Assembly (NCBI GenBank): GCA_018652475.1
Contig: JABICB010000004.1
Span: 1 to 36,130, forward strand
From: an archaeon
GTDB lineage: Archaea > Nanobdellota > Nanobdellia > SCGC-AAA011-G17 > PNOQ01
DNA: 36,130 bases
Reading direction: 5' to 3'
Both the position numbers and the translations under genes were made by a program. This document shows positions 5,630 to 19,045 of this stretch, piece after piece. Each line of letters starts with the position of its first letter. Position 1 is the stretch's first letter. Under the pieces are notes generated by a model. The model had not been told where the DNA came from, did no database searches, and saw only the letters and a list, made by a program, of their open reading frames with translations.

Positions 5630-6319
5630 ATGAATAAGAGAGGTCAGTTCTATATAATTACTGTATTGATAATAGCAATGGCTACTTTCGCAATTACTGC
5701 AGAATCAAATACAATAAAAAAAAGTAAATTATTTGAAGATTTTTCTCCCGTTTCAGAAAATTATGTTAAGGAAAGTACAAAGGCAATAAACTTAGCAATT
5801 AAGAATGAAGAAGTTGACTCGATTGATACAAATTTAGAAAATTTTACAAAATCTTTTTTGAACTATGCAAAACAAAGAGATCCTTCTATTGAATTAGTTT
5901 ATGTTTTCAAAGATGGCGATGATATAATTGTAAAAAATTATTTAACTTCTTCAAATGTCAATTATCATAATACTACTATCTTTCCGGCAGGAGAAGAGGT
6001 TTTACAAGCAATAACATTAGAAGTTGGAGGAAAAGAATTTTCACATCAAACTCCTGTTAGTGTAGAAGATATGGGGAAAACTTGGTACACTTATAATGGT
6101 GCTGGTACTGTTCAAGAAATGAATTTAAGTGTAGGGGGAATTGCACATAATTTCGATTTAGCTTCTGGACCAGATTTCAAAGTGATAATCAGATCAGCAA
6201 CTAACTCTCAAGAAATAACTTTAGGGGACGGGACAGAAGAATGGGTTCCAAAATCAAAAGAAAGAGGAGGTTTGTTGGGAAAAGTTTTTGAAGTAGTACA
6301 ACAATTTATAACTAAATGA
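5630..6319 (+). CDS. Pilin-like protein 1
   Basis: The 229-residue product has a short basic leader MNKRG followed by a hydrophobic helix (about residues 6-24, FYIITVLIIAMATFAI). This is the layout of archaeal class III signal peptides, cut after K/R-G by a prepilin peptidase so that the helix packs into a filament core. The remaining part is a large extracytoplasmic domain with NFT and NTT sequons. It opens the locus, and its stop overlaps the next start by 4 nt (ATGA), implying translational coupling. The size suggests a minor or tip pilin rather than the major subunit. No prepilin peptidase gene is in the window. Confidence 0.7.
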   Translation: MNKRGQFYIITVLIIAMATFAITAESNTIKKSKLFEDFSPVSENYVKESTKAINLAIKNEEVDSIDTNLENFTKSFLNYAKQRDPSIELVYVFKDGDDIIVKNYLTSSNVNYHNTTIFPAGEEVLQAITLEVGGKEFSHQTPVSVEDMGKTWYTYNGAGTVQEMNLSVGGIAHNFDLASGPDFKVIIRSATNSQEITLGDGTEEWVPKSKERGGLLGKVFEVVQQFITK

Positions 6320-6843
6320 AATCAAAAAAAGGTATATCTCCTTTAATAGGTTGGATATTATTAATTGGATTCGCAGTAGCAATGGCAAGTTTTGTCGGAA
6401 CGTGGATGATAGATCAAACTAGGAATATTGAATTTCCAGGAGAAGGGCCAGATATGTATTGCGATAGTATTAAATTATCTGCAGTGCATATAGAAAGGGC
6501 AGCAGATAATTCTACAGTAAATTTCGAATTAAAAAATACTGGCAATTTTAAGATTGATCAATTTACAGTTGGAAGAGATACAGCTAGTATGGTTGATGAA
6601 TGGTGTTTGGAACAAAATATAAATTTAATGCCCGGCAGTGTATTCAATTTTAATTTAAGTGCAAATGAGGATTTTATGAGTGGGGCAGGATATGCTGTAT
6701 GTGGAAATTATCTTGGATCAGCAAATAGTAAAATAGTAACAAAAATTACTTTTGTACCTTGGATAAAAATTGATGAGGAATTTATGCACTGTTCAAAACA
6801 GAAATTAATATTAATGATGGAGCATACAGATTTAAATAACTAA
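6316..6843 (+). CDS. Archaeal type IV pilin-like protein 2
   Basis: The 175-residue product starts MKSKKG then ISPLIGWILLIGFAVAMASF, the canonical archaeal pilin N-terminus (K-K-G followed by I-S-P and a helix, as in Pfam archaeal pilin families). Cleavage is expected after G6. The globular part contains cysteines in MYCDS, EWCLEQ, YAVCGNY and MHCSKQ and a short beta-rich region typical of N-terminal-helix pilins with immunoglobulin-like C-terminal folds. It overlaps pilin 1 by 4 nt and is separated from pilin 3 by 1 nt. Confidence 0.85.
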   Translation: MKSKKGISPLIGWILLIGFAVAMASFVGTWMIDQTRNIEFPGEGPDMYCDSIKLSAVHIERAADNSTVNFELKNTGNFKIDQFTVGRDTASMVDEWCLEQNINLMPGSVFNFNLSANEDFMSGAGYAVCGNYLGSANSKIVTKITFVPWIKIDEEFMHCSKQKLILMMEHTDLNN

Positions 6844-6844
6844 A

Positions 6845-7306
6845 ATGAAAAGAAGTGAAAAAAAAGCAATAAGTCCTTTATTGGCAACAGTAATGTTGAT
6901 AGCATTCGTATTAGTTCTAGCAATTTTAGTTTGGTTCTGGTATTCAGGAGTGATTGGAGATTATACTGAAAAAAGTGGAATTGGGGGGGATCAAATATGT
7001 GCACAAGATGTAAGTTTCATAATTAGTTCTGCATGTAATAATGCTGACTCAGTAATAATTGGAGTAGAGAATCCGGGAAGAACCCATATAATAAGTTTTA
7101 AAGTAGTTATTAATGGGGATACAGTAGAAACAAAAGAAACAAGCACTGGAGTTCAGATGGGAGTAACTGCTCAAATAAGTGCTACGTATAATGCAACAGC
7201 AATGGGTACTGTTCAAACAGTAAAATTAATTCCAATGATATTTTCTCAGGGATATACTACTGAATGTACTGAAAATATACAAACAGCGAATGTAATTTCG
7301 TGTTAA
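6845..7306 (+). CDS. Archaeal type IV pilin-like protein 3
   Basis: The 153-residue product has leader MKRSEKKA, then ISPLLATVMLIAFVLVLAIL. Here alanine replaces the usual glycine at the cleavage position, which archaeal prepilin peptidases can tolerate. The C-terminal half shares recognisable segments with the next pilin (ATYNATA, then TVKLIP and a cysteine pair near the C-terminus), so the two are likely paralogues. The final residue region ends NVISC. It is followed by a promoter for the next pilin gene. Confidence 0.85.
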   Translation: MKRSEKKAISPLLATVMLIAFVLVLAILVWFWYSGVIGDYTEKSGIGGDQICAQDVSFIISSACNNADSVIIGVENPGRTHIISFKVVINGDTVETKETSTGVQMGVTAQISATYNATAMGTVQTVKLIPMIFSQGYTTECTENIQTANVISC

Positions 7307-7318
7307 GTTCACCAAAAC

Positions 7319-7330
7319 CTTTAAATATCT
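7319..7330 (+). promoter_or_regulatory. Internal promoter for the candidate major pilin
   Basis: CTTTAAATATCT is a good TATA box about 70 nt upstream of the ATG at 7390. It implies a leader of roughly 40 nt ending in the strongest Shine-Dalgarno sequence seen here. Confidence 0.6.
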
Positions 7331-7376
7331 TGTAATCAAATTTTCTATAATATTATTAAAAAACCAATGATAAAAA

Positions 7377-7384
7377 GGAGGTGA
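7377..7384 (+). promoter_or_regulatory. Strong Shine-Dalgarno site of candidate major pilin
   Basis: GGAGGTGA, five bases before the ATG at 7390, is a full match to the usual archaeal 16S 3' tail complement. Most genes in the window lack such a site, so this one is marked for high translation. Confidence 0.7.
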
Positions 7385-7389
7385 AATAA

Positions 7390-7848
7390 ATGAATAAAAA
7401 AGGAATGTCATCATTAATCGCAACAGTATTAATTATAGGATTCACAATAGTTTTAGCAGTATTAGTTATTAACTTTGTACAGAATATATTTGAAGACAGA
7501 ATGGATGCAACTGGATGTGATGCAGCAGGTTATAATATTTGTTTAAGTGCAACTAATTATGATATTGTGGCAACATATAATGCAACCGCTAATGAAACAA
7601 CAACAAATATAATCAATATGAATTCGCAAGCAATGGATTTTGCAGTAATATTCTATGGTGCAGCCGGACAATCACTATTAGTAAATTCATCTGTTGGAAT
7701 TGTAGCAGGATATACAGCAATAGATGTAATCTATGAGGGTAACGCAACGACTGTAAAGATTATACCTTCAGCAATTGGAGAGTATGAAGATTTAGAATGT
7801 GCAGCAGTAACTTGTGATGAGAAAGAAGTAGATGTGGCAACAGTATAA
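7390..7848 (+). CDS. Candidate major type IV pilin (pilin-like protein 4)
   Basis: The 152-residue product begins MNKKG, then MSSLIATVLIIGFTIVLAVL, a typical archaeal pilin leader and filament-core helix. The extracytoplasmic domain is rich in Ala/Thr/Asn, carries four sequons (NAT, NET, NSS, NAT) for N-glycosylation, and ends with a cysteine-containing region. Own TATA box, about 40-nt leader, full Shine-Dalgarno match and a T-tract after the stop codon single it out as the most highly expressed member, hence the major-subunit assignment, which is inference. It resembles pilin 3 in the C-terminal half (ATYNATA; TVKIIP versus TVKLIP). Confidence 0.85.
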   Translation: MNKKGMSSLIATVLIIGFTIVLAVLVINFVQNIFEDRMDATGCDAAGYNICLSATNYDIVATYNATANETTTNIINMNSQAMDFAVIFYGAAGQSLLVNSSVGIVAGYTAIDVIYEGNATTVKIIPSAIGEYEDLECAAVTCDEKEVDVATV

Positions 7849-7858
7849 GCCACATTAT

Positions 7859-7869
7859 TATTTTTTTTT
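7859..7869 (+). terminator. T-tract after candidate major pilin
   Basis: A run of nine T (7861-7869) lies between the pilin 4 stop and the next ATG at 7876. A U-tract terminator here would give abundant short pilin mRNA and only partial read-through into the assembly genes. Confidence 0.45.
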
Positions 7870-7875
7870 AAAAAG

Positions 7876-8379
7876 ATGATGAAAAAAAGAGGACAAATTT
7901 GGATATCTGCTGTATTATATATGGCAATAGGAATAGTAATAATTTCATTAATTATGGCGGTAGGAGTTCCAGTAATTCAAAAGATGAGTGATAGACATAC
8001 ATTAGTTCAAACTGAAGAAATGATGGCTTCATTGGATGAAATAGTTCGTTCGGTCAAGGGTCAAGGATTAGGTGCCCAAGATGTAGTTTCTATGGGATTA
8101 AACAAGGGAACTTTCAATATAGATGAAACTAATGATCAAATTAGTTGGCAAATGGAAACAACTGCATTATTATCTGAACCAGGTTATCCAGTAACACATG
8201 GAAATTTAATTTTATTAACTGAAGTAAAAGGAAATAGGTATGATGTAACTTTAACTTTAAATTATACAAGTACAATAGATATAACTTATAGTGGGATGCT
8301 TCCTATATCTGGAAAGCACCGTATAGCAATACAAAATAAAGGAAATAATGAAATTCATTTAGAGGATTTATCAGTATGA
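7876..8379 (+). CDS. Pilin-like protein 5
   Basis: The 167-residue product has leader MMKKRG, then QIWISAVLYMAIGIVIISLI, resembling the R-G-Q leader of pilin 1 rather than the I-S-P type. The soluble part is beta-rich with sequons NYT. It immediately precedes the ATPase, overlapping it by 4 nt (ATGA), which suggests a minor or assembly-initiating pilin made in step with the motor. A second ATG at 7879 could also serve as start. Confidence 0.75.
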   Translation: MMKKRGQIWISAVLYMAIGIVIISLIMAVGVPVIQKMSDRHTLVQTEEMMASLDEIVRSVKGQGLGAQDVVSMGLNKGTFNIDETNDQISWQMETTALLSEPGYPVTHGNLILLTEVKGNRYDVTLTLNYTSTIDITYSGMLPISGKHRIAIQNKGNNEIHLEDLSV

Positions 8380-9944
8380 AAAAATTACCAAATTTAGAAA
8401 AAAAAGAGGAATCAATATTCAAATTAGATCTAGCTCCAAGATTACCTACTTTCAAGGCTGTTGAAAAGGATCAAGTTGACGAAAAATACCCACTTATTGC
8501 ACCTTATGCATATGCACACATAAAATGGGATAAAGAAAAAAAAGAGTTAATTTACACAGTTGAAGAACCTAATTTAGATCCAAAAGAGAAAAAAATTCTA
8601 ACTTTAATTGAAGGAGGAGTAAAAGAACTAATTAATATAAGTTATTTAGCTGCAGAAAAAGGGGAAACTGTAATTGCATATTTAGAAAAGAATGTTAGGG
8701 TTTTATTGGATGAATTAAGGATAACAATAACAAAAGAATCATACCTAAAGATAATGTATTATATTTACAGAGATTTTGTAGGGTTGGGGAGAATAGAACC
8801 ATTAATGAAAGATCCATTAATTGAAGATATTGAATGTAACGGGTCAGATTTTCCAATATTCATAGTTCATAGGAAATTTAGAAATATTAAAACTAATATA
8901 ATATATAAAAGTATTTCAGAATCTGCACATTTTGTAGAAAGATTAGCTCAAAAATCGGGACAATATGTTTCTTATGCAAGCCCATTATTAGATAGTGCAC
9001 TACCTGATGGGAGCAGAGTAAATGCTACGTTCACTGAAGATATTTCATCAAGGGGACCAACTTTCACAATCAGAAAGTTCACAAAAAAACCTTGGACTCC
9101 AACACAATTAATACACTTAAAAACACTCCCTCCAGAATCATTAGCCTATTTATGGTTATTAATAGAATATGAAAAAAATATAATGATAGTAGGGGGAACA
9201 GCATCAGGGAAAACAACTCTATTAAATGCACTAACCTTCTTTATCCCTCCTGCAGCAAGAATAGTTTCTATTGAAGACACTAGGGAATTAAATTTAGAAC
9301 ATAGTAATTGGTTACCTTCTGTCGCAAGAGCTGGAGTCGGATTAGCAAACCTAGTTGGACAAAAATATGGAGAAGTTACATTATTCAACTTATTAAAAGA
9401 GAGTTTCAGGCAGAATCCTGATTATGTATTAGTCGGAGAGATAAGGGGTGAAGAAGCATATGTATTATTCCAAGGCATGGCTTCAGGACACCCTAGTTTT
9501 GGTACTATGCATGCAAATGATGTAGAAACTATGATTAGAAGATTAGAAACTCCTCCCATAAATTTATCTCCTTCTTTGGTAGAGTCTATGGATGCAGTAG
9601 TAGTTATGACTGGAACGAAAGTTAATGGGAAAGCAGTTAGGAGAGTAAAGGAAATTGCAGAAATTATTTCTGTAAGGGACGAGGGGGCAGTAATAAATAA
9701 ACCTTTCACTTGGAATCCTGCTACGGACTCATTTATAGCAAATGCAGAAAGTCATGTATTCAAAACAATAATTGAACAACATGGAGTGAAGTATGAAGAT
9801 CTTATAGCAGAGTATAACAGGCGGGCAAAATTATTAAAAAAATTATATGAGGGAAAATATTTTGAGTTTTCACAAGTTCAAGAAATAATTAATGAGTACT
9901 ATAAGGATCCTGCAGCAGTTTTAAGTAGATTTGGAGTAGTATAA
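8376..9944 (+). CDS. Type IV pilus/secretion motor ATPase (ArlI/GspE-VirB11 family)
   Basis: The 522-residue cytoplasmic ATPase powers assembly of the filament. Visible motifs are Walker A GGTASGKTT (residues 273-281), the Asp-box/arginine region before it (SRGPTFTIRKF), the Walker B segment YVLVGEIRG with E355, and the His box SFGTMHAND with H379. The N-terminal 200 residues match the usual ArlI/GspE2 N-domain. Length is close to archaeal family members. It overlaps pilin 5 by 4 nt and the following small gene by 1 nt, so all are one operon. Whether the machine makes adhesive pili, a motility filament or a secretion pseudopilus is not shown. Confidence 0.95.
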   Translation: MKKLPNLEKKEESIFKLDLAPRLPTFKAVEKDQVDEKYPLIAPYAYAHIKWDKEKKELIYTVEEPNLDPKEKKILTLIEGGVKELINISYLAAEKGETVIAYLEKNVRVLLDELRITITKESYLKIMYYIYRDFVGLGRIEPLMKDPLIEDIECNGSDFPIFIVHRKFRNIKTNIIYKSISESAHFVERLAQKSGQYVSYASPLLDSALPDGSRVNATFTEDISSRGPTFTIRKFTKKPWTPTQLIHLKTLPPESLAYLWLLIEYEKNIMIVGGTASGKTTLLNALTFFIPPAARIVSIEDTRELNLEHSNWLPSVARAGVGLANLVGQKYGEVTLFNLLKESFRQNPDYVLVGEIRGEEAYVLFQGMASGHPSFGTMHANDVETMIRRLETPPINLSPSLVESMDAVVVMTGTKVNGKAVRRVKEIAEIISVRDEGAVINKPFTWNPATDSFIANAESHVFKTIIEQHGVKYEDLIAEYNRRAKLLKKLYEGKYFEFSQVQEIINEYYKDPAAVLSRFGVV

Positions 9945-10171
9945 TGGTAATTGATATGATAACTGAAAATGCCAAGACTCTTGCAGAACTTATAAAAAAA
10001 TATGATGCCTTGGTAAAGAAAAGGCAGATTGTATATGAGGAATCGCTCAATAATAAAGAAAAGAAACATGGTGAAGAATTAAATCAAATAAATTCTAAGT
10101 TGGAAAAAATGAAAGATTATGTATTGGCTCTGATGACTAGTATGGAAAAACAAATTGATTCAAAATTATAA
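9944..10171 (+). CDS. Small coiled-coil protein in pilus operon
   Basis: The 75-residue product is charged and helical throughout, with a likely coiled coil over about residues 15-65 (heptad-like ELIKKYDALVKKRQIVYEE, then LNQINSKLEKMKDYVLALM). It has no membrane segment or signal peptide. It starts inside the ATPase stop codon (TAATG overlap) and ends 3 nt before the platform gene, whose product also starts with a coiled coil. I infer an adaptor between motor ATPase and platform, but no known family is recognised. Confidence 0.7.
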   Translation: MVIDMITENAKTLAELIKKYDALVKKRQIVYEESLNNKEKKHGEELNQINSKLEKMKDYVLALMTSMEKQIDSKL

Positions 10172-10174
10172 AAA

Positions 10175-11431
10175 ATGTACGAAGATATAAAACATGTGGC
10201 AGAGCGAATATTAAATACTTCGAAAGAGGCAGAAAAATATGATTCTGAAAAAAAAGAATTGATTTCTAAGCATGCCAATAAAGAAGATATTGAAGAATAT
10301 AATGAAAAGATTAAAAATTTATTAAAACAAATAAAAAATGATCTCCCTATAATTTATAATGAAGTTAAGAAAACTCCCGTATTAGATTCAAAGAATAATA
10401 TATCTCAACAAGAATCAACAGGATCTAGTTTTGGAACAAAATTATCTTTTTCAGAAAAAAGAAAATTACTTTCTGAGTTAAATATTTCTGAAGATGATTT
10501 AAAAAAATTTGCAAAAATCCATAAATCTCCAAAAAAAGAAGTAGAAAATAAAGATTTTACTGTTTACAAATCAACAAAATATGCAAAATTGTCTAATACT
10601 ATGGTAGAAAGATTTTCTTTTTCTTTAATGAAAAAGAAACCTGACTTATTCAAACCTTTATTTGGTGCAATGAATTCTGCAAATTTGAAAGTATTTTCAA
10701 GAAGTTATGTAGATATAATATTATTTTCAGCAATCTTGGCATTACCCATTACTATGTTAGTTTTATTTTTAATAACATCAAATCCAATTATTTCTATACT
10801 TTCTGGGATAGTGGCAATGCCTGTAGTAGCTATACTAATCTATATGTACCCTTTTTCGATTGTTAATACTAGGAGGAGGGAAATAAAGAGAGAATTAGTA
10901 TTTGCAATAATTCATATGGCTGCAATATCAGGATCAGGAGTAAAACCTTCAAAAATTTTCAAATTATTAATAGAATCAAAAGAATATCCAGAATTAGAAA
11001 CAGAATTTAAGAGAATTCTGAATTATACTAATCTATTCGGATACAGTTTATCTACTTCATTAAGGGCTGTTGCAGAAACAACTCCCTCTCCAGAATTTAA
11101 AGAGTTATTGCACGGTATGACTTCAACAATTGAGACTGGTGGGAGTTTAAACGATTATCTTTCGAATAAAGCAGATGAAACTATGGGTAGATTTAATTTA
11201 GATCAAAAAAAATATTTAGAAACAATTGCCACATATTCAGATGTTTATACTGGATTATTAATTGCAGGGCCATTATTATTCATAGTAACTTTAGCAATTC
11301 TTGAAAGTATTTCTCCAGATTTAGGAGGAATAGCAATATCAACTTTGGCAAGTCTAGGAGTATTTGTTATGATGCCTTTGTTGAATATAATCTTTATGTT
11401 ATTTTTAGAAATGGGGAAGTCAGAAATATGA
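10175..11431 (+). CDS. Pilus platform membrane protein A (TadC/ArlJ-like, T2SSF domain)
   Basis: The 418-residue protein has a long cytoplasmic N-terminal region (about 1-175, partly coiled coil), two transmembrane helices near 180-230 (IILFSAILALPITMLVLFLI and the following one), a cytoplasmic T2SSF-type helical domain (about 235-345, with ISGSGVKPSKIFKLL), and two C-terminal transmembrane helices. This is the inner-membrane platform on which the ATPase acts. Canonical ArlJ carries two T2SSF domains in one chain; here the second is in the next gene, overlapping by 4 nt. Confidence 0.9.
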   Translation: MYEDIKHVAERILNTSKEAEKYDSEKKELISKHANKEDIEEYNEKIKNLLKQIKNDLPIIYNEVKKTPVLDSKNNISQQESTGSSFGTKLSFSEKRKLLSELNISEDDLKKFAKIHKSPKKEVENKDFTVYKSTKYAKLSNTMVERFSFSLMKKKPDLFKPLFGAMNSANLKVFSRSYVDIILFSAILALPITMLVLFLITSNPIISILSGIVAMPVVAILIYMYPFSIVNTRRREIKRELVFAIIHMAAISGSGVKPSKIFKLLIESKEYPELETEFKRILNYTNLFGYSLSTSLRAVAETTPSPEFKELLHGMTSTIETGGSLNDYLSNKADETMGRFNLDQKKYLETIATYSDVYTGLLIAGPLLFIVTLAILESISPDLGGIAISTLASLGVFVMMPLLNIIFMLFLEMGKSEI

Positions 11432-12285
11432 AAATAAAAATTAAAATCAGGCACATAATATCTCTTATCACGGGGTTATCGATGATAGTCCTATCATTAA
11501 TTATGTTATCTGAATCTAGGTGGATGAAATCAATAATTACTGTTGGCGTATTTCTGATGGTATCACAGTTTTGGATAGATAAGCTAATTGATAACAGAAA
11601 ACAACAAGAAGTTGAAGAAAAGTTTTTAGAATTTGTCCGTGCATTATCAAACTCAGTTAAAGCAGGAATACCTGTTCCAAAAGCAGTCATGATGGTGTCT
11701 GGGGCAGATTATGGTGCCTTGACTCCTTATGTAAAAAAGTTAGCTAAACAGCTAGAATGGGGCTTCCCTCTGCGGCAAGCATTAATGACCTTTGCATTAG
11801 GAACCGGAAATAAATTAATTAAAAAGGCAATCAATATTGTTATTGAGGCAGAAAAAGGTGGAGGGGATATTCAAGAAGTATTGACTAAAGTAACCACTGC
11901 AGTTTTACAAATAAAAAAGATAAAAGAAGAAAGAAAATCCATGATATTCTCTCAGATTCTTCAAGGATACATAGTATTCTTCATATTTATTGGAATAATG
12001 GTGGTATTACTAATATATTTATTACCTCAGATGGAAGGAATGGGGGGAATGATGACTGGTCAGTTAATGGGCGGATCTAGTAATTTATTAGATTCAGGAA
12101 CAGAAGCTGCTGCTTCAAAAATAGATTTCAATATAATTTTCACAGGATTAATTTTAATTCAGGGATTTTTTGCAGGACTAATGTTAGGTAAATTTTCAGA
12201 AGGGGAATTAAAGCATGGAATAAAACATTCATTGTTAATGATGCTTGGGGGATACTTAATCTTCGCAACAGCAGTAGGTATGTAA
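11428..12285 (+). CDS. Pilus platform membrane protein B (TadC/ArlJ-like, T2SSF domain)
   Basis: The 285-residue protein has two N-terminal transmembrane helices (about 8-50), one T2SSF domain (about 60-165; EFVRALSNSVKAGIPVPKAV and EAEKGGGDIQEVL), then a transmembrane helix (YIVFFIFIGIMVVLLIYLL), a Gly/Met-rich extracytoplasmic loop, and further helices at the C-terminus. It is the second half of a bipartite platform, comparable to TadB/TadC pairs or to a split ArlJ. It is translationally coupled to platform protein A, and 2 nt separate it from the next pilin-like gene. Confidence 0.9.
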   Translation: MKIKIKIRHIISLITGLSMIVLSLIMLSESRWMKSIITVGVFLMVSQFWIDKLIDNRKQQEVEEKFLEFVRALSNSVKAGIPVPKAVMMVSGADYGALTPYVKKLAKQLEWGFPLRQALMTFALGTGNKLIKKAINIVIEAEKGGGDIQEVLTKVTTAVLQIKKIKEERKSMIFSQILQGYIVFFIFIGIMVVLLIYLLPQMEGMGGMMTGQLMGGSSNLLDSGTEAAASKIDFNIIFTGLILIQGFFAGLMLGKFSEGELKHGIKHSLLMMLGGYLIFATAVGM

Positions 12286-12287
12286 TT

Positions 12288-13013
12288 ATGAATAAAAAAG
12301 GATTATCTTATGTGGATTGGGCAATAAGCTTCGGGCTATTTGTAATATATTTGTTAGCTATATTTATTCTAATTAAACCAGATGTAATAGATTCATATGA
12401 TTCGGATTTCTTAAATTCAATTGTGCAACAAGGATTGGAAGAAGATGTATATATTGATCTAACTACTTATCCTTTATTTATTGATACAGTCTCTCCAGGT
12501 AGCCATATTTCACTAGATCTGATTAATAATTTTCAATTTTTAAATAATACTAATACTGTAATTTTAGATAACAATTCAAATAAACTAAACTTTAGCCGTA
12601 GTTCAACTAGATTGAATTTTGATTATGATTTCACTAATGGGATGAATGATTTCAAAATAATATATTCAGAAAAGTTAAATTATTCAAATCATGTACCTTT
12701 TGGGGAAACGAGTATTTCTGCAAATTATACAATAGGAATAGCAGAACATAGAAAAGGAGTATATACAACTTTTTTTAATGATCTCCATGATATTGATTAT
12801 TATGATTTAAAGACAAAGTGGGGATATCCTATACAAAATGAGTTTGCAATAGAGATATACAATGGTTCAGATTTAACTATTGGGCCAGAATTATCTTATG
12901 AGTACATAACTCCTCAAATAGATGCAAAAGTAAATGTATTGATGTGGAGTGATTGGAGAATAAATGCACATGCTAATAATGAGTTAGTAACTATGTTAAT
13001 CAAAACTTGGTAA
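12288..13013 (+). CDS. Pilin-like protein 6 (large, sequon-rich)
   Basis: The 241-residue product starts MNKKG, then LSYVDWAISFGLFVIYLLAI, a class III-like leader and hydrophobic helix. The extracytoplasmic domain is beta-rich, aromatic and asparagine-rich with at least six N-x-S/T sequons (NNT, NFS, NYS, NYT, NGS among them). The size exceeds a normal pilin, suggesting a minor or tip subunit, or an adhesin-like subunit. It is encoded 2 nt after the platform gene and 1 nt before the last pilin-like gene. Confidence 0.75.
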   Translation: MNKKGLSYVDWAISFGLFVIYLLAIFILIKPDVIDSYDSDFLNSIVQQGLEEDVYIDLTTYPLFIDTVSPGSHISLDLINNFQFLNNTNTVILDNNSNKLNFSRSSTRLNFDYDFTNGMNDFKIIYSEKLNYSNHVPFGETSISANYTIGIAEHRKGVYTTFFNDLHDIDYYDLKTKWGYPIQNEFAIEIYNGSDLTIGPELSYEYITPQIDAKVNVLMWSDWRINAHANNELVTMLIKTW

Positions 13014-13014
13014 A

Positions 13015-13404
13015 ATGAATAAAAAAGCATATATGAAAACACTGGAAGCAATAATTGCGATAGTACTATTCTTAGGAGTAATTACAATTTTATTATCTTC
13101 AAATAAAGAAATTGAAACAGGGGTTCCCCAAGATATGGTTTTAATTCAAGATACTATCTTAAATACAATTCAAGAAAATAATACTTTAAGGAATTATGCA
13201 ATTTTATTAAGTGATTTCAACATTGATTCATTCATCAGTTCATCAATCCCAGTAGGAATTGGATATAACTTCACATTATGTGATGATATATCTTCTGGTG
13301 GATATCCTACAAGTACAGAAAGTGAAAAATTATACGCAGATAGTTTAATAATAGTTGAAGGCGAAGATATAGCAATAATCAATCTTATATTATGGAGAAT
13401 ATAA
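13015..13404 (+). CDS. Pilin-like protein 7 (Glu-containing leader)
   Basis: The 129-residue product starts MNKKAYMKTLEAIIAIVLFL. It is the only pilin-like protein here with a glutamate near the start of the hydrophobic helix, like the conserved Glu5 of bacterial type IV pilins. The leader lacks the glycine, so processing after A5 is a guess. It could be the initiating pseudopilin or an unprocessed membrane anchor. It closes the pilus operon; the arvABC-like promoter follows directly. Confidence 0.7.
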   Translation: MNKKAYMKTLEAIIAIVLFLGVITILLSSNKEIETGVPQDMVLIQDTILNTIQENNTLRNYAILLSDFNIDSFISSSIPVGIGYNFTLCDDISSGGYPTSTESEKLYADSLIIVEGEDIAIINLILWRI

Positions 13405-13416
13405 TTTCTCCGAAAG

Positions 13417-13426
13417 ATTTAAAAGG
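13417..13426 (+). promoter_or_regulatory. TATA box of arvABC-like operon
   Basis: ATTTAAAAGG with a purine-rich BRE-like CGAAAG just upstream. It predicts a transcript start near 13445, which leaves room for the Shine-Dalgarno-like AGGGGTG at 13453-13459 but not for any upstream ATG. Confidence 0.55.
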
Positions 13427-13466
13427 ATTATATCAAACAATATAATTAAATAAGGGGTGTTTAGAA

Positions 13467-14099
13467 ATTAAAAAATTCAAATCATTTTTTTTAAAATATT
13501 TTTTAAATGTATTCAAAAAAAAGAAAGAGCTTAGCTTAGGTTTCTATGGTCCACCAAATGCAGGCAAGACTACGTTAGCAAACAGAATCTGTATGGATTG
13601 GATTGGAGAAGAAATGGGTAGTGTTTCAAATATGCCTCATGAGACTAGGGAAGTAACACTAAAAGAAAGTGTAGTTATAGAATCAGAAGGGAAAAAATTA
13701 ACATTTAATATTGTTGATACTCCTGGAATTACAACAAAGATAGATTATGAAGAATTCTTAAAATTCAAAAGTATGTCCAAGAAGAAATCTAAAGAGAGAG
13801 CAAAAGAAGCAACAAAAGGAGTAATAGATTCAATCAAATGGTTAGATAATATGGACGCAGTAGTAGTTGTGTTGGATGCAACAACGAATCCCTATTCTCA
13901 AGTAAATATTACTATCATTGGGAATCTTGCAGCAAGAGATATTCCTGTATTAATTGTAGCAAATAAAGTTGATTTAAAGAAAGCAAATTTTAAAAAAGTA
14001 ACAAATGCATTTCCACAATATCCTGTGATTGGTTTATCTGCAAAGAAAGGAAAAGGTGTTGAAGGATTCTATAAGGAGATATTCAAGTTAGTAAAATGA
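13467..14099 (+). CDS. arvA: ArvA-like Era-type GTPase, apparent ATT start
   Basis: With the start at 13467 the product has 210 residues. G1 is GPPNAGKTT (residues 28-36), G3 is DTPG (84-87), G4 is NKVD (166-169) and G5 is SAKKG. The first ATG in frame (13593) would delete the P-loop, so it cannot be the true start. The frame is open back to a TAA at 13443, with no ATG, GTG or TTG before the P-loop. ATT at 13467 is preceded by AGGGGTG at a 7-nt spacing, like the GGAGGTGA site of the major pilin. The N-terminus is basic and hydrophobic (KKFKSFFLKYF), possibly membrane-binding. With DUF2073 and zinc-ribbon neighbours it matches ArvA/OapA, a small GTPase linked to vesicle formation in Euryarchaeota. 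A homopolymer error at 13515-13522 is the alternative (ATG 13507). Confidence 0.75.
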   Translation: MKKFKSFFLKYFLNVFKKKKELSLGFYGPPNAGKTTLANRICMDWIGEEMGSVSNMPHETREVTLKESVVIESEGKKLTFNIVDTPGITTKIDYEEFLKFKSMSKKKSKERAKEATKGVIDSIKWLDNMDAVVVVLDATTNPYSQVNITIIGNLAARDIPVLIVANKVDLKKANFKKVTNAFPQYPVIGLSAKKGKGVEGFYKEIFKLVK

Positions 14100-14524
14100 T
14101 GACTACATTCCAATATATACCATACAGGGAACATTCCTCACAAGGAACTGATGAAAAATTAAATAGAATATTAGATATAGTAAAAAATGAGCGAGTAATT
14201 TTAATGGAAGGGCGATTAAAACCAACAGAAGAACTTGAACTAATGAAAAGAAATATGGAAGCAATATCAAAAAAGTTTTCTGGGATATCATTAGTAACAA
14301 TAAATCCAAATCAAGATAGATTAAAAAAGAAAGATCAAGAATTTCATGAAAAAATAAAAGAAGGAATAAAAAATAATTTATATAAGTTAATGATGGGCAA
14401 AAGAGAAGGATTAACTATAATCGGTCCAGCATCAATAATCAAAGAGATTAGAAAAGATCCTTCAAAGATAGAATTAATAACTAATTCAGAAAAGAAAAAA
14501 CCATTAAGGAAGAGGAAGAAATAA
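14096..14524 (+). CDS. arvB: ArvB/OapB-family protein (DUF2073)
   Basis: The 142-residue product is soluble with an alpha/beta pattern, beginning FQYIPYREHSSQGTDEKLN and continuing with a segment MEGRLKPTEELELMK and GLTIIGPASIIKEIRKDP. The spacing and position between an Era-like GTPase and a zinc-ribbon protein identify the DUF2073 (OapB/ArvB) family. The start overlaps the GTPase stop by 4 nt and the end overlaps the next start by 1 nt. Function is known mainly by association with the vesicle GTPase; it likely acts as a partner in the cytoplasm. The C-terminus is lysine/arginine-rich (LRKRKK). Confidence 0.75.
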   Translation: MMTTFQYIPYREHSSQGTDEKLNRILDIVKNERVILMEGRLKPTEELELMKRNMEAISKKFSGISLVTINPNQDRLKKKDQEFHEKIKEGIKNNLYKLMMGKREGLTIIGPASIIKEIRKDPSKIELITNSEKKKPLRKRKK

Positions 14525-14898
14525 TGCCCCATCAATGCGTTCGATGTGGTAAGATGTATGATGACGGTTCAGAAAACTTACTCTCCGGCTGCGCATGTGG
14601 AGGGGGATTTTTTTTCTATATCAAAAAATCCAAAGTAAAAGAAGCAGAAGAAATTTCTAAAGAATTATCCTCTGAACAGAGAGTACAAATAGAGAAAGAT
14701 GTTACTGAAATTGTTGGGGCACCCAAAGATGATCAACCAGTATATCTAGATTTAGAGTCAATTAGAGTTCTTCAGCCAGGAAAATATGAATTAGATTTAA
14801 TATCTCTTTTCAAAAAAGGAAACCCAGTTGTTTACAAAGTTGAGGACGGTAAATACATAATTGATTTAGCTGCAACATTAGATTCAGTGAAGAAATAA
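14524..14898 (+). CDS. arvC: ArvC/OapC-family zinc-ribbon protein (DUF2072)
   Basis: The 124-residue product opens MPHQCVRCGKMYDDGSENLL, then GCACGGGFFFY. This is the N-terminal signature of the OapC/ArvC zinc-ribbon family (DUF2072). The metal knuckles are C5-x-x-C8 and C23-x-C25; the second knuckle is C-x-C. A predicted helix and beta-rich domain follow (residues 40-124). The start codon shares its A with the arvB stop (TAATG), so the three genes are translationally coupled. A short hairpin (14901-14918) follows the stop. Confidence 0.8.
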   Translation: MPHQCVRCGKMYDDGSENLLSGCACGGGFFFYIKKSKVKEAEEISKELSSEQRVQIEKDVTEIVGAPKDDQPVYLDLESIRVLQPGKYELDLISLFKKGNPVVYKVEDGKYIIDLAATLDSVKK

Positions 14899-15023: not shown

Positions 15024-16313
15024 ATGAAAGGATATAAACTAATGACTGTAGCTTTACTTGCTCTAGTTTTACTAGGGTTCTCAGGTATTGCAAATGCAGA
15101 CAGTACTAACGTAGAGTTAGAAACTATATCTCTTAATGGAATTGAATTTGATTCAACTGAAGAATCTGTTGCTTTAACAGTTTACAGAGGAACCGAATTA
15201 GATATTGATGTTCTACTAAAAGGTAATGCAGATATAGATGACGTAAGAGTAAGTGTAGAACTTCTAAATAGCGAATACGATTTAGAAGTAAAAACAGAAA
15301 AATTCGATGTAATAAATAACAGTTATTACACCAAATCATTAACAATTATAGTTCCAGAAGATATGGAAGTAAGTGGTTATGAATTATCTGTGGAAGCATA
15401 TTTCTACAATGAAAGCGGTAGTATTGTAAATGAAGAGTTCACATCAACAATTTATGTTGAGATGAGCAATACTTTGGAAGTATACGATTTAGTTGTTAGT
15501 CCAAGTTTAAATATCGAAGCAGGTCAAATGATCGCTGCAAACATCGGTGTTAAAAATTTGGGTGAAGAACAAGAAGATGTTAGAGTTTACATGAAAGTTC
15601 CTGCTTTAGGTCTTTCAACTATGACTACATTATTTGATTTAGTTTCTGAAACTGAAGAAGATGAAGATAATAATGATTATTACAAAGTTCACAAAGCTTT
15701 GGAATTATTAGTTCCATCAAGTGTAGATGCAGGAAACTATGAATTAGTTTTCGAAGTTGTTTACGAAGATGGTGACGAAGTAGTTACTGAAACTAGAACT
15801 TTAGTTGTAAACGGTGGAAGTGTAACAACTGAAGACGTAGTTATTAGCGTAGATGTAACATCACAAAATATCGTACAAGGTAGAGGCGCAGTTTATAAAA
15901 TCCTTTTTGCTAACGTTGGCTCAAACACAGCAGCATACACTATTGAATTAAGTGATGTTAGTGCTTGGGGTACAGTAAGGGCTGATCCTTTAACTTTAAC
16001 TGTTAGTCCAGACAACAATGGAGAAGCATACATTTTTGTATCAACTCATGAGAGTTCCCCATTGAATGCACATACTTTCACAGTGAGTGTATTATCTGGC
16101 GATTCTGTAGTTAAGGAATTTGATCTAACTGCTAACATAATTGAATCATCCAATTTATCAGGATGGGACGAAGTTAGAGTAGGTCTAGAGATTGGTTTCG
16201 CTGTATTATTAGTCATTTTAGTAGTTCTTGGAATAGTTCTTGTGGCTAAAAGGTTAGGAAAAGGCGAAGATGGTGAAGAACCATTAATAGAAGAAGGACA
16301 AAGTTATTACTAA
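15024..16313 (+). CDS. Membrane-anchored surface protein 1 with Ig-like domains
   Basis: The 429-residue product has a signal peptide (about 1-25, LMTVALLALVLLGFSGIANA), three to four beta-rich immunoglobulin-like domains, and a C-terminal transmembrane helix (about 390-412, IGFAVLLVILVVLGIVLVA) followed by a short charged cytoplasmic tail. Sequences such as LNIEAGQMIAANIGVKNLGE and VSPDNNGEAYIFVS are typical of CARDB/COG1361-like domains of archaeal envelope proteins. Strong TATA box, structured leader, G-rich Shine-Dalgarno site and a long T-rich terminator point to high expression, so a structural envelope role (S-layer-like or partner) is plausible but inferred. Confidence 0.8.
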   Translation: MKGYKLMTVALLALVLLGFSGIANADSTNVELETISLNGIEFDSTEESVALTVYRGTELDIDVLLKGNADIDDVRVSVELLNSEYDLEVKTEKFDVINNSYYTKSLTIIVPEDMEVSGYELSVEAYFYNESGSIVNEEFTSTIYVEMSNTLEVYDLVVSPSLNIEAGQMIAANIGVKNLGEEQEDVRVYMKVPALGLSTMTTLFDLVSETEEDEDNNDYYKVHKALELLVPSSVDAGNYELVFEVVYEDGDEVVTETRTLVVNGGSVTTEDVVISVDVTSQNIVQGRGAVYKILFANVGSNTAAYTIELSDVSAWGTVRADPLTLTVSPDNNGEAYIFVSTHESSPLNAHTFTVSVLSGDSVVKEFDLTANIIESSNLSGWDEVRVGLEIGFAVLLVILVVLGIVLVAKRLGKGEDGEEPLIEEGQSYY

Positions 16314-16316
16314 CTC

Positions 16317-16345
16317 CTTTTTCTTTTTTTTCTTTTTTTTCTTTT
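16317..16345 (+). terminator. T-rich terminator after surface protein 1
   Basis: Directly after the stop codon lies a 29-nt stretch that is nearly all T with a few C, the longest T-tract in the window. Multiple U-runs are efficient archaeal terminators and suit a highly transcribed gene. Confidence 0.65.
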
Positions 16346-16410
16346 ATAAATTCTTTTTAAACTCTTTATAAAAAATATTTACTTCATTAGTATAATTAAA
16401 AAACAATTTT

Positions 16411-16419
16411 CTTTATAAG
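16411..16419 (+). promoter_or_regulatory. TATA box of surface protein 2
   Basis: CTTTATAAG, about 45 nt upstream of the ATG at 16463, with a GGGGG Shine-Dalgarno core at 16450-16454. Confidence 0.5.
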
Positions 16420-16462
16420 TAAAGTCGGTATTCCAAAAGAGTAACAAAAGGGGGTTTACATA

Positions 16463-19045
16463 ATGAGTAACAAAAAGTTAATACTACTAATGTTGGTAAC
16501 ATTGTTTTTGCCTGCAGTTTTTGCAAGCGGAAATTTTAACGTATTTGAAGGATCAAATATCGATTCAGTGTGCCCAACATCTACAGGACTAATTACAGAC
16601 GCAGTTGAAAATACAGGTGATGAGCCGCTAGAGTTTTCAGTAAGTTCATCAGGAAGTGCAGCAGCATTTTCTACAACAGTTCCACAAGGATTTATTCTTG
16701 CACCTGGGGCAGTTAAAACTATTTTCACTTACATAACACCAATGTCTTCAATAAATGTTGGACAATATTCTTTAACAATATCTTTCAATTCAAATGCAGG
16801 ATCAAAAACAATTTCACATCCAGTACTTGTAGAAGATTGTTTTGAATATTCTTTCGAAGCACTTGATGAATTAAAACATGTATGTCCTTGTGAGGCAGAC
16901 AAATTTGATTTTGAGATAGAAAACAATGGAGAATATTCTGAGACATATTATTTAACAGTTGAAGGACAAGCAGCTAATTCAATAGTACTAAGTGAAGAAG
17001 TTGTAAGTTTAAATGCAGGTCAATCAAAAATAGTTTATGCATATGCTACTTCAAGTTGTGATGATTTAGGTGATTACGAATTTACAGTAATTGCGAATCC
17101 AGTATCTGGAAGTTCAATAAAATCTGTAAATGCAAAATTAGTAGTTGATCCATGTTATGATTTTGATATTCAAACAGAAAAGGACCTTATAGCATTCTGT
17201 GAACATTCTCAAATAGCTGTGCCTATCAAAATAGAGAATGAAGGTTCAACACCAAATACATATTACTTTGATATAAGTGGGCCAGCGTGGGCTAATTTAG
17301 AGAACAATAAATTAGATATTCTTGCAGGACAATCAAGTAATGTAAATATGATATTAACTCCAGATTATGGAATTGAAGGATTATTTGAAATAAATTTCAA
17401 TGTTGATACTGATAAGGGGGAAGTTGGATTAGAAAATACTTTCAATATTCAGGTAAAGAATTGTTATTCTGTTGATCTTGATATAATGAGGGATACAGAT
17501 AGAATTTGTAATGCATTAGAAAATACTTATTCATTAAAAGTAAGAAATGATGGGGAGTTAACAAAAGCTTATTTACTAACATTAGATGGTCCGGATTGGG
17601 CAACACTAAGTAAGACTAGAGTTGATTTAGAAGCTGGGGCAGAAGAAGAAGTTACTCTTACAATAAACCCTACTTATAATACAGTTCCAGCAGCTTACAA
17701 CATCAAAATAAAAGCTACAGCAATAGACAGTGATAAAATAGCAGCTGAAGAAAATATTGAGATAACAACAGTTTCAAAAGAGGAATGTTATCAAGCGAGT
17801 ATTGGATTAGATGAAGATAATCTAGAAGTATATTATGATTCAAGTTCCACTATTCCAGTTGTAATAGAAAATTTAGGAACTTATACTGCAACTTATGATT
17901 TAACTTTAACAGGTACTGCAGCAAATTTCGTATACTTGAATCCAGCTGTAGTGACTATAGATGAAGCAAAATCTGAATTAGTTTACTTATATGTGGCACC
18001 ATCTTCACAGATACCAAATGGTAACTATAAGGCAACAATCTCTGTAAGATTGGGAGATAGTACAATCTTAGCTTCAAAGACTGTGAATATAGAAGTGACA
18101 GATAGCGAAAGCATGATGCCTACTGGCGCAGTAGTTGCTGAGACAGAAGGAATTTCAATATTTACAAGAATAGCAGGATTTTTCAAATCACTATTTGCAA
18201 CAGTTGAAGAAACAGAGGAATTAGTTGATTCATTAAATGAAACAGAAGAGTTAGAATTAGAATTAAACGAAACCGCTGAATTAATAGCTGATTTAAACGA
18301 GTCAGTAGAAATTAATGAAACAGTAGAAATTAATGAAACAGTAGAAATTAATGAAACAGTAGAAATTAATGAAACAGAAGAAGTAACTGAGTTTATGGCT
18401 AAAACTATTTTAATAGGATTAGAAGAATCAACAAGTTTCAATTTGGGGGATGAAGAACACACAATAACCCTTACAGAAGTAGTTGATGAAACAAAAATAG
18501 TTTTAACAATTAATTCAGATCCAATCTTAGTTGAGTTAGATATTGGGGAAACAAAAGAAATAGATGTTAATCAAGATTCAGTAATTGATCTTAAATTAAG
18601 ATTTGATGGTATGGCTGGAGATAAAGCAGACATTTCATATGAATACTTAGTGGGGGAAGATGCTGGGATGGGAGACATAACTGGCAATGCAGTTGATGAA
18701 ACTCCAAAAGAACCATTATTCAGTGGAATATCTAGTTTATTCGGTTCAATGGCAGGATATTCAAACTATTTGATAGGGATAATAGTGATATTATTACTAG
18801 TATTTGTATCAATCAGAACAGACTTCCATCACAAAGTAATTGACTTTTTCGAAGAAGAAATCGATGAAAAAGATTACAAGGATCTAACTGAAGAATCTGA
18901 CCAAACTCCAATAAATCTATCTAGTGATGAACCAAAAGAAACTGAAATCGAGATAGAAACTGAAGATGAAAAACCTAAAACTTCAGAAGAAGAAGATGAT
19001 GATGACGAAGTAATCATTGAGTTTGATGATGACGATGAAGAGTAA
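16463..19045 (+). CDS. Large membrane-anchored surface protein 2 with repeated beta domains and sequon stalk
   Basis: The 860-residue product has a signal peptide (about 1-20, LILLMLVTLFLPAVFA), then about five repeated beta domains of about 95 residues up to residue 550. Several begin near a cysteine in a segment like DCFEYSF or DPCYDFDI. Each contains an N-G/N-E-G turn and a segment such as LNAGQSKIVY or LAGQSSNVNM. Next come a PTGAVV motif (553-558), an amphipathic helix, and a Glu/Asn-rich stalk with tandem VEINET repeats (615-638). A beta domain, ITGNAV (739-744), a transmembrane helix (about 763-785) and a very acidic cytoplasmic tail complete it. It is likely an abundant envelope glycoprotein. 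Confidence 0.8.
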   Translation: MSNKKLILLMLVTLFLPAVFASGNFNVFEGSNIDSVCPTSTGLITDAVENTGDEPLEFSVSSSGSAAAFSTTVPQGFILAPGAVKTIFTYITPMSSINVGQYSLTISFNSNAGSKTISHPVLVEDCFEYSFEALDELKHVCPCEADKFDFEIENNGEYSETYYLTVEGQAANSIVLSEEVVSLNAGQSKIVYAYATSSCDDLGDYEFTVIANPVSGSSIKSVNAKLVVDPCYDFDIQTEKDLIAFCEHSQIAVPIKIENEGSTPNTYYFDISGPAWANLENNKLDILAGQSSNVNMILTPDYGIEGLFEINFNVDTDKGEVGLENTFNIQVKNCYSVDLDIMRDTDRICNALENTYSLKVRNDGELTKAYLLTLDGPDWATLSKTRVDLEAGAEEEVTLTINPTYNTVPAAYNIKIKATAIDSDKIAAEENIEITTVSKEECYQASIGLDEDNLEVYYDSSSTIPVVIENLGTYTATYDLTLTGTAANFVYLNPAVVTIDEAKSELVYLYVAPSSQIPNGNYKATISVRLGDSTILASKTVNIEVTDSESMMPTGAVVAETEGISIFTRIAGFFKSLFATVEETEELVDSLNETEELELELNETAELIADLNESVEINETVEINETVEINETVEINETEEVTEFMAKTILIGLEESTSFNLGDEEHTITLTEVVDETKIVLTINSDPILVELDIGETKEIDVNQDSVIDLKLRFDGMAGDKADISYEYLVGEDAGMGDITGNAVDETPKEPLFSGISSLFGSMAGYSNYLIGIIVILLLVFVSIRTDFHHKVIDFFEEEIDEKDYKDLTEESDQTPINLSSDEPKETEIEIETEDEKPKTSEEEDDDDEVIIEFDDDDEE
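18305..18376 (+). repeat. Four tandem 18-bp repeats coding VEINET
   Basis: An 18-bp unit starting GTAGAAATTA is repeated exactly four times (18305-18322, 18323-18340, 18341-18358, 18359-18376). In frame it encodes VEINET, so each unit adds one N-x-T glycosylation sequon. Copy number could vary without loss of frame. Confidence 0.95.

Follow-up and report, generated by a model that had tools for sequence, protein, structure and literature searches.

A Small Coiled-Coil Protein Encoded Between the Motor and Platform Genes of a Type IV Pilus Locus in DPANN Archaea

The DNA analyzed here (the window) is a stretch of 36,130 nucleotides from an archaeal genome of 525,744 bases, assembled in 20 contigs and 92% complete. 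Checking of the open reading frames (ORFs) between positions 5630 and 13404 confirmed the coordinates and strand recorded in an initial annotation of the window; all of the genes are on the + strand, and most of them almost abut. In order, they encode five leader-plus-helix proteins (pA to pE), an ATPase, a protein of 75 aa (CC), two platform subunits (PF1 and PF2), and two more leader-plus-helix proteins (pF and pG). The ORFs and domain searches thus bear out the gene content described in that annotation, namely seven leader-plus-helix proteins, one ATPase, a 75-residue protein, and two proteins with a single T2SSF domain each.

Three of the seven leader-plus-helix proteins exceeded the cut-off (20 bits) of TIGR02537, the archaellin/T4-pilin N-terminal model: pB (6316 to 6843, +; KKG↓ISPLIG; 24.1 bits), pC (6845 to 7306, +; KKA↓ISPLLA; 27.2 bits), and pD (7390 to 7848, +; KKG↓MSSLIATVLIIGFTIVLA; 29.4 bits). 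A weak match of pC to the UpsA model scored 33.1 bits against a cut-off of 130. Because pD is present in one to three copies in relatives, it is a candidate major pilin. By inspection, the other four, pA (5630 to 6319, +; KRG↓QFYIITVLII), pE (7876 to 8379, +; KRG↓QIWISAVLYM), pF (12288 to 13013, +; KKG↓LSYVDW), and pG (13015 to 13404, +; KKA↓YMKTLEAII, with a conserved LE motif), carry the cleavage motif K-K/R-G/A ahead of a hydrophobic helix. In many related loci, profile searches placed relatives of these four in corresponding gene positions; among 35 loci with enough flanking sequence, they were present in 21 for pA, 24 for pE, 22 for pF, and 20 for pG. pE, which in relatives lies immediately 5′ of the ATPase gene, matched DUF7289 weakly (E 0.0026, under the cut-off). 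pA had no Pfam or NCBIfam match above cut-off and is likely a minor pilin. The earlier grouping of the leaders into at least three types was a fair one, to which the acidic residue at mature position 5 of pF can be added.

The ATPase (8376 to 9944, +; 522 aa) is of the GspE/FlaI pilus assembly type (T2SSE, 111.5 bits). PF1 (10175 to 11431, +) and PF2 (11428 to 12285, +) matched T2SSF with 64.3 and 62.6 bits, respectively, one domain in each. Because PF1 corresponds to the first half of the ArlJ models and PF2 to the second, and together they span them, the platform is one ArlJ/TadC split in two. Contig C18 contains a gene for a prepilin peptidase (Peptidase_A24, 62.8 bits; G000:C18:18684-19046), with a partial match to the FlaK-like model that was under the cut-off; the initial annotation, which reported no such gene, was therefore right for the window and not for the genome. 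Searches of the 92% complete genome gave no match to Arch_flagellin and none to ArlD/E (Arch_fla_DE), and the controls were positive in both cases, those for Arch_fla_DE being M. jannaschii and H. volcanii. Inspection of the locus itself found no ArlH or ArlF/G. The features expected of an archaeal type IV pilus (T4P) are present, with a GspE/PilB-type ATPase, two T2SSF domains in total, class III leaders, and a prepilin peptidase in the genome, and the platform is split as in TadB/TadC of the bacterial Tad pilus, a system whose Flp pilin, RcpA secretin, and TadZ would not be looked for in an archaeon.

Because archaellin and ArlD/E matches are missing from the genome while a prepilin peptidase is encoded on C18, we conclude from these sequence comparisons that the locus belongs to a T4P rather than to an archaellum. 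It is an ordinary T4P cluster, a machine of a known kind in a known setting, from a DPANN archaeon, one of a group of tiny organisms prone to symbiosis. The initial annotation had also read it as T4P-like and non-archaellar, and the full archaellum cluster that would have spoken against that reading did not appear, archaellin and ArlD/E being the components sought genome-wide. A stripped-down archaellum in which CC is a divergent ArlC/D/E-type scaffold is improbable in the extreme: the FlaI model is the best NCBIfam family for the ATPase (391.5 bits, below its cut-off of 550), but in the PDB the ATPase is nearer to A. fulgidus GspE (2oap, 363.9 bits) than to FlaI (4ii7, 256.9 bits), the platform is split, and the archaellum matches are lacking.

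Contig C18 carries a second T4P-type motor, consisting of a 760-aa T2SSE protein and a 709-aa TadC-like protein, alongside several genes for products with leaders and a pair of coiled-coil genes (L114:13212-14274). Assignment of the genome's second T2SSE gene as a PIN-KH ATPase was rejected, since it is this 760-aa motor beside the TadC-like protein. The second motor agrees with what the main text of Hamm et al. (2024, PMC11291902) describes for cluster 2 DPANN archaea, namely two conserved T4P loci that are accompanied by coiled-coil proteins. The loci in the window and on C18 are probably those two, and novelty of the locus as such is not supported.

Relatives of the ATPase were drawn from metagenome-assembled genomes labelled Woesearchaeota, Pacearchaeota, and Nanoarchaeota. 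An ATPase match of some kind was found in all 99 relatives searched; a large subset had a close orthologue (at least 54% identity), and the others had only distant paralogues at about 35%. In Woesearchaeota-type genomes the conserved order is pA-pB/pC/pD-pE-ATPase-(CC)-PF1-PF2-pF-pG. Most of the 35 loci with sufficient flanks retain pA, pE, one to five ISP-type pilins, PF1, PF2, pF, and pG in that same order. The ISP-type pilins were absent upstream in 10 of the 35, which are among the more distant loci and include those of Aenigmarchaeota and Nanohaloarchaeota. A gene order shared by most intact relatives lies well outside what chance could produce. In the Aenigmarchaeota and Nanohaloarchaeota relatives, a KaiC/ArlH-like ATPase occupies the gene slot of CC; the slot may therefore host alternative motor-coupling subunits.

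The CC gene (9944 to 10171, +) encodes a two-helix hairpin protein, identified by its profile relatives and by an AlphaFold model with one hairpin (helices 2-36 and 40-74; mean pLDDT 89.7). It has neither a signal peptide nor a membrane helix. A profile search found CC in 48 of the 99 relatives, about half of the close ones, as a single copy directly after the ATPase, bar one borderline match; its absence from all relatives, which would have counted against the initial annotation, is not what was seen. The relatives are 48-92 aa long, occupy the slot between ATPase and PF1, and share the family consensus MSLxxIKQN...E....Y, of which the N-terminal motif is kept over large divergence. The start of the CC gene frequently overlaps the ATPase stop codon. 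Across 279 genomes of the phylum, all matches to the CC profile better than E 4e-4 fell in the ATPase-PF1 slot, and weaker ones were mostly short stretches of longer frames. Because the matches are confined to this slot, CC is specific to this motor. CC genes moved elsewhere in CC-less genomes were not found; one such case, L135, does have CC in its slot, where an ATPase frame that overlaps it had hidden it.

Searches of Pfam and NCBIfam with CC returned, at E<=1, sub-cut-off matches to unrelated helical families, none of them FliJ/YscO, and assignment to a family in either collection was rejected on that basis. A fold search returned generic coiled coils and designed hairpins, with nothing at E<=0.001. 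We conclude from these comparisons that CC is a real, dedicated family without a curated Pfam or NCBIfam model, in accord with the earlier view that the small coiled-coil gene lay outside known families.

Coiled-coil genes are reported with the T4P loci of cluster 2 DPANN archaea, Woesearchaeota included, and CC could on that account be an attachment-fiber-like protein that acts outside the motor in host attachment. We consider this very improbable. The proteins in the main text of Hamm et al. (2024, PMC11291902) were found through nucleoporin-like domains and resemble the reovirus sigma-1 fiber, whereas CC is 48-92 aa long and lacks both a signal peptide and a membrane helix; the coiled-coil genes of the second motor locus look like better candidates. 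CC was set apart from the published proteins (NAR1_03220/NAR1_01690) by their descriptions.

The AlphaFold model of PF1 has an N-terminal hairpin (residues 5-31 and 36-65, high confidence), then a linker predicted with low confidence, and lastly the membrane part with T2SSF; PF2 is without the hairpin extension. Foldseek with the PF1 model matched only the cytoplasmic domains of EpsF/OutF/PilC, with high probability and E-values above 0.05, and a PDB profile search with PF1 gave no match. In the first loci that were read, PF1 was long exactly where CC was present, and this held in 80 loci added later. In the full set of 135 distinct loci with an alignable ATPase, automatic scoring gave 100 loci with both CC and the PF1 extension, 31 with neither, 4 with the extension only, and none with CC only. 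Two loci were then read by eye: L135 contains the hidden CC described above, and the PF1 extension of L070 is a low-complexity stretch and not a hairpin. The revised counts were 101 with both, 32 with neither, 2 with the PF1 hairpin only (L108 and L128, each with an N-terminal PF1 hairpin and no CC), and 0 with CC only. The automatic scoring left out one more locus, L144, in which the slot is occupied by a 45-aa frame that overlaps a PF1 with a wrongly assigned start.

On a tree of the ATPases, made by a quick search with SH-aLRT support only, there were about 13 changes of both traits. Among 10 independent pairs, all on branches with good support, the two traits changed in the same direction in 8.8 on average and in opposite directions in 0 (sign test, p 0.004; with the automatic scoring, p 0.008). 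The lengths of CC and of the PF1 hairpin showed no positive correlation (Spearman -0.24).

These counts bear on two alternatives to a partnership of CC with PF1. FliJ/YscO of type III export is a small antiparallel hairpin whose gene follows the ATPase gene. By analogy, CC could be an ATPase stalk or chaperone, a free hairpin that docks in or on the hexamer and touches the platform transiently, the PF1 hairpin being a separate trait. The position of the CC gene directly 3′ of the ATPase gene, often overlapping its stop codon, and the bare antiparallel hairpin of its model fit such a role, and the very weak fold matches of the PF1 model include a chain of a FliJ-family complex (6wa9_M, E 9). 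That fold match is generic, however, and CC without the PF1 extension occurs in 0 of the 135 loci, whereas a partner of the ATPase alone would not need the extension. CC and FliJ/YscO resemble each other in hairpin and gene position, but they have no detectable homology and belong with different ATPase families. We regard a FliJ-like role as unlikely, although it deserves some weight.

Alternatively, CC and the PF1 extension could be dispensable adjacent DNA, lost jointly by single contiguous deletions, with CC having no dedicated partner in the machine. The two are indeed adjacent, and in CC-less loci the ATPase and PF1 genes are often joined with a 4-base overlap. Such losses should frequently be one-sided in both directions, but CC alone was never found and the extension alone was found in 2 of 135 loci; the conserved N-terminal motif of CC, despite large divergence, also argues against this explanation, which we consider distinctly unlikely.

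The two hairpins are weakly alike in sequence, at a level that is suggestive only. Comparison of the CC and PF1-extension profiles gave a score of 25.6, against at most 12.4 for reversed profiles, at most 8.8 for 100 column shuffles, and at most 16.4 for 60 heptad-preserving block shuffles. With a larger set of 100 loci the score was 22.1, mainly from helix 1, and the best of 42 unrelated blocks scored 15.3; the hhalign probability was 52-68%. Because the score exceeds those of the controls, CC may have come from the 5′ part of PF1 by tandem duplication, a suggestion and nothing firmer. The PF1 N-terminus of L128, a possible natural CC-PF1 fusion, matched the CC profile with E 0.0044, and its pairwise z was below 2 against its nearest kin.

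The reading that we favor, and hold to be probable, is a T4P motor of the GspE/TadC kind in which CC and the PF1 hairpin would pair to form a detachable cytoplasmic motor-platform module. The core machine would consist of the ATPase, the PF1/PF2 platform, and major and minor pilins processed by the prepilin peptidase encoded elsewhere, and CC would be an extra cytoplasmic subunit of the motor. Its hairpin would pack on the similar N-terminal hairpin of PF1 to form a helical bundle, tethered to the platform on the ATPase side through the flexible linker, and the bundle could keep platform and ATPase together, couple them, or determine stoichiometry. Where a lineage loses the module, the two halves go together and the other components of the machine stay. 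Because CC is gained and lost together with a matching PF1 hairpin, it is probably a new part of motor-to-platform coupling in a DPANN pilus. The proposal of a new motor-platform linker in the initial annotation therefore stands in part: CC is a real family whose distribution is tied to the PF1 hairpin, the data do not tie it to the ATPase, and a linker is possible.

The main weakness of the favored reading is that CC and the 5′ end of PF1 are adjacent on the DNA, so that one deletion can easily remove both without any physical partnership. Pure chance is made less credible by the lack of CC-only loci, by the small number of loci with the extension alone, and by the retention of the CC motif, though these are no proof of contact. 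A more specific proposal, that CC and the PF1 hairpin are a helical coupling module that arose by tandem duplication of the platform N-terminus and was lost whole in several DPANN lineages, with a slot that may host alternative motor-coupling subunits, is tentative, and we give it somewhat less than even weight.

It is still an open question how the ATPase of a type IV filament drives the platform in the membrane, and an ATPase, a platform, and pilins are considered nearly sufficient for archaeal machines. Lineages with and without CC and the PF1 hairpin, in which the machine is kept, provide natural plus/minus pairs for tests of motor-platform coupling, and the work annotates a DPANN gene family that the curated collections lack. 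A role of this pilus in host contact is plausible from the literature on DPANN archaea and other episymbionts.

The archaellum motor (ArlI/ArlJ with ArlH and ArlC/D/E) has an ATPase and a platform homologous to those of the window; it differs in its archaellin and ArlD/E, and in that a single ArlJ corresponds to PF1 plus PF2. Among known T4P, the euryarchaeal clade 2 systems (Makarova, Koonin and Albers 2016, PMC4858521) share with this locus a GspE-like ATPase, often two tadC-like genes (present in many of their loci), and adjacent pilins with class III leaders, and a few nanoarchaeal ATPases belong to that clade. The clade 2 description in that paper does not include a hairpin protein between ATPase and TadC, and the T4P-linked coiled-coil family that it lists, arCOG07564, is found in halobacterial loci of subclade 4F. 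The loci of Hamm et al. (2024, PMC11291902) come from the same archaeal groups and agree in outline, with an ATPase, TadC, pilin-like proteins, and coiled-coil proteins; the latter are proposed to be of an attachment type, and a hairpin subunit coupled to the platform does not figure in the main text. On comparison with that text, both the CC family and the way it depends on the PF1 hairpin are apparently undescribed. The account of the bacterial Tad motor CpaF-CpaG/CpaH (TadA-TadB/TadC) in the relevant parts of PMC11300603 mentions no CC-like subunit. The split platform, which the initial annotation had considered unusual, is shared with Tad systems as well as with many euryarchaeal loci (PMC11300603, PMC4858521): TadB and TadC are described as fission products of a single ancestor, and there, as here, the platform is made of two single-domain proteins, thought in the Tad motor to act as one unit on the hexameric ATPase.

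The pilus genes are followed by a gene for a conserved P-loop GTPase (window 13440-14099), the frame of which is open through the P-loop. At the position corresponding to the start of the relatives' GTPases (MIKKFK...), the window reads GAA ATT AAA, without ATG, GTG, or TTG; therefore, translation begins at a non-standard codon unless the assembly is wrong here. Directly after this gene come those for the origin-associated proteins OapB and OapC (window 14096-14898; matches of 54.4 and 86.3 bits, respectively), and several close relatives likewise have the GTPase-OapB-OapC trio next to their pilus genes. Two proteins with repeated Ig-like domains, secreted or membrane-anchored, are encoded at window 15024-19045; relatives of the first adjoin the same pilus locus in two other loci (L035 and L037), and the second has an acidic tail.

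The window's genome carries a second T4P-like motor locus on contig C18 (L114:2917-13130, minus strand, and 13212-14274, plus strand). Alongside the genes for a 760-aa ATPase and a 709-aa TadC-like protein, this locus has several leader-bearing genes and, transcribed divergently, two coiled-coil genes; the product of one looks nucleoporin-like. The prepilin peptidase gene on C18 lies approximately 4 kb past these leader-bearing genes.

The pilus ATPase of many relatives (e.g., genomes G040, G046, G048, G067, and G072) bears insertions that recur at several positions, around residues 213, 302, and 370, and give open frames of approximately 1000-2000 aa. These insertions are probably inteins.

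L128, a locus without a separate gene for the predicted hairpin protein CC (75 aa in the window), encodes a platform protein PF1 (L128:1542-3218, minus strand) with an N-terminus weakly resembling CC (E 0.0044), and this PF1 may be a CC-PF1 fusion. In four Aenigmarchaeota/Nanohaloarchaeota loci (L080, L081, L082, and L088), a KaiC/ArlH-like RecA-fold ATPase lies between the ATPase and a PF1 without the hairpin, in the slot held elsewhere by CC.
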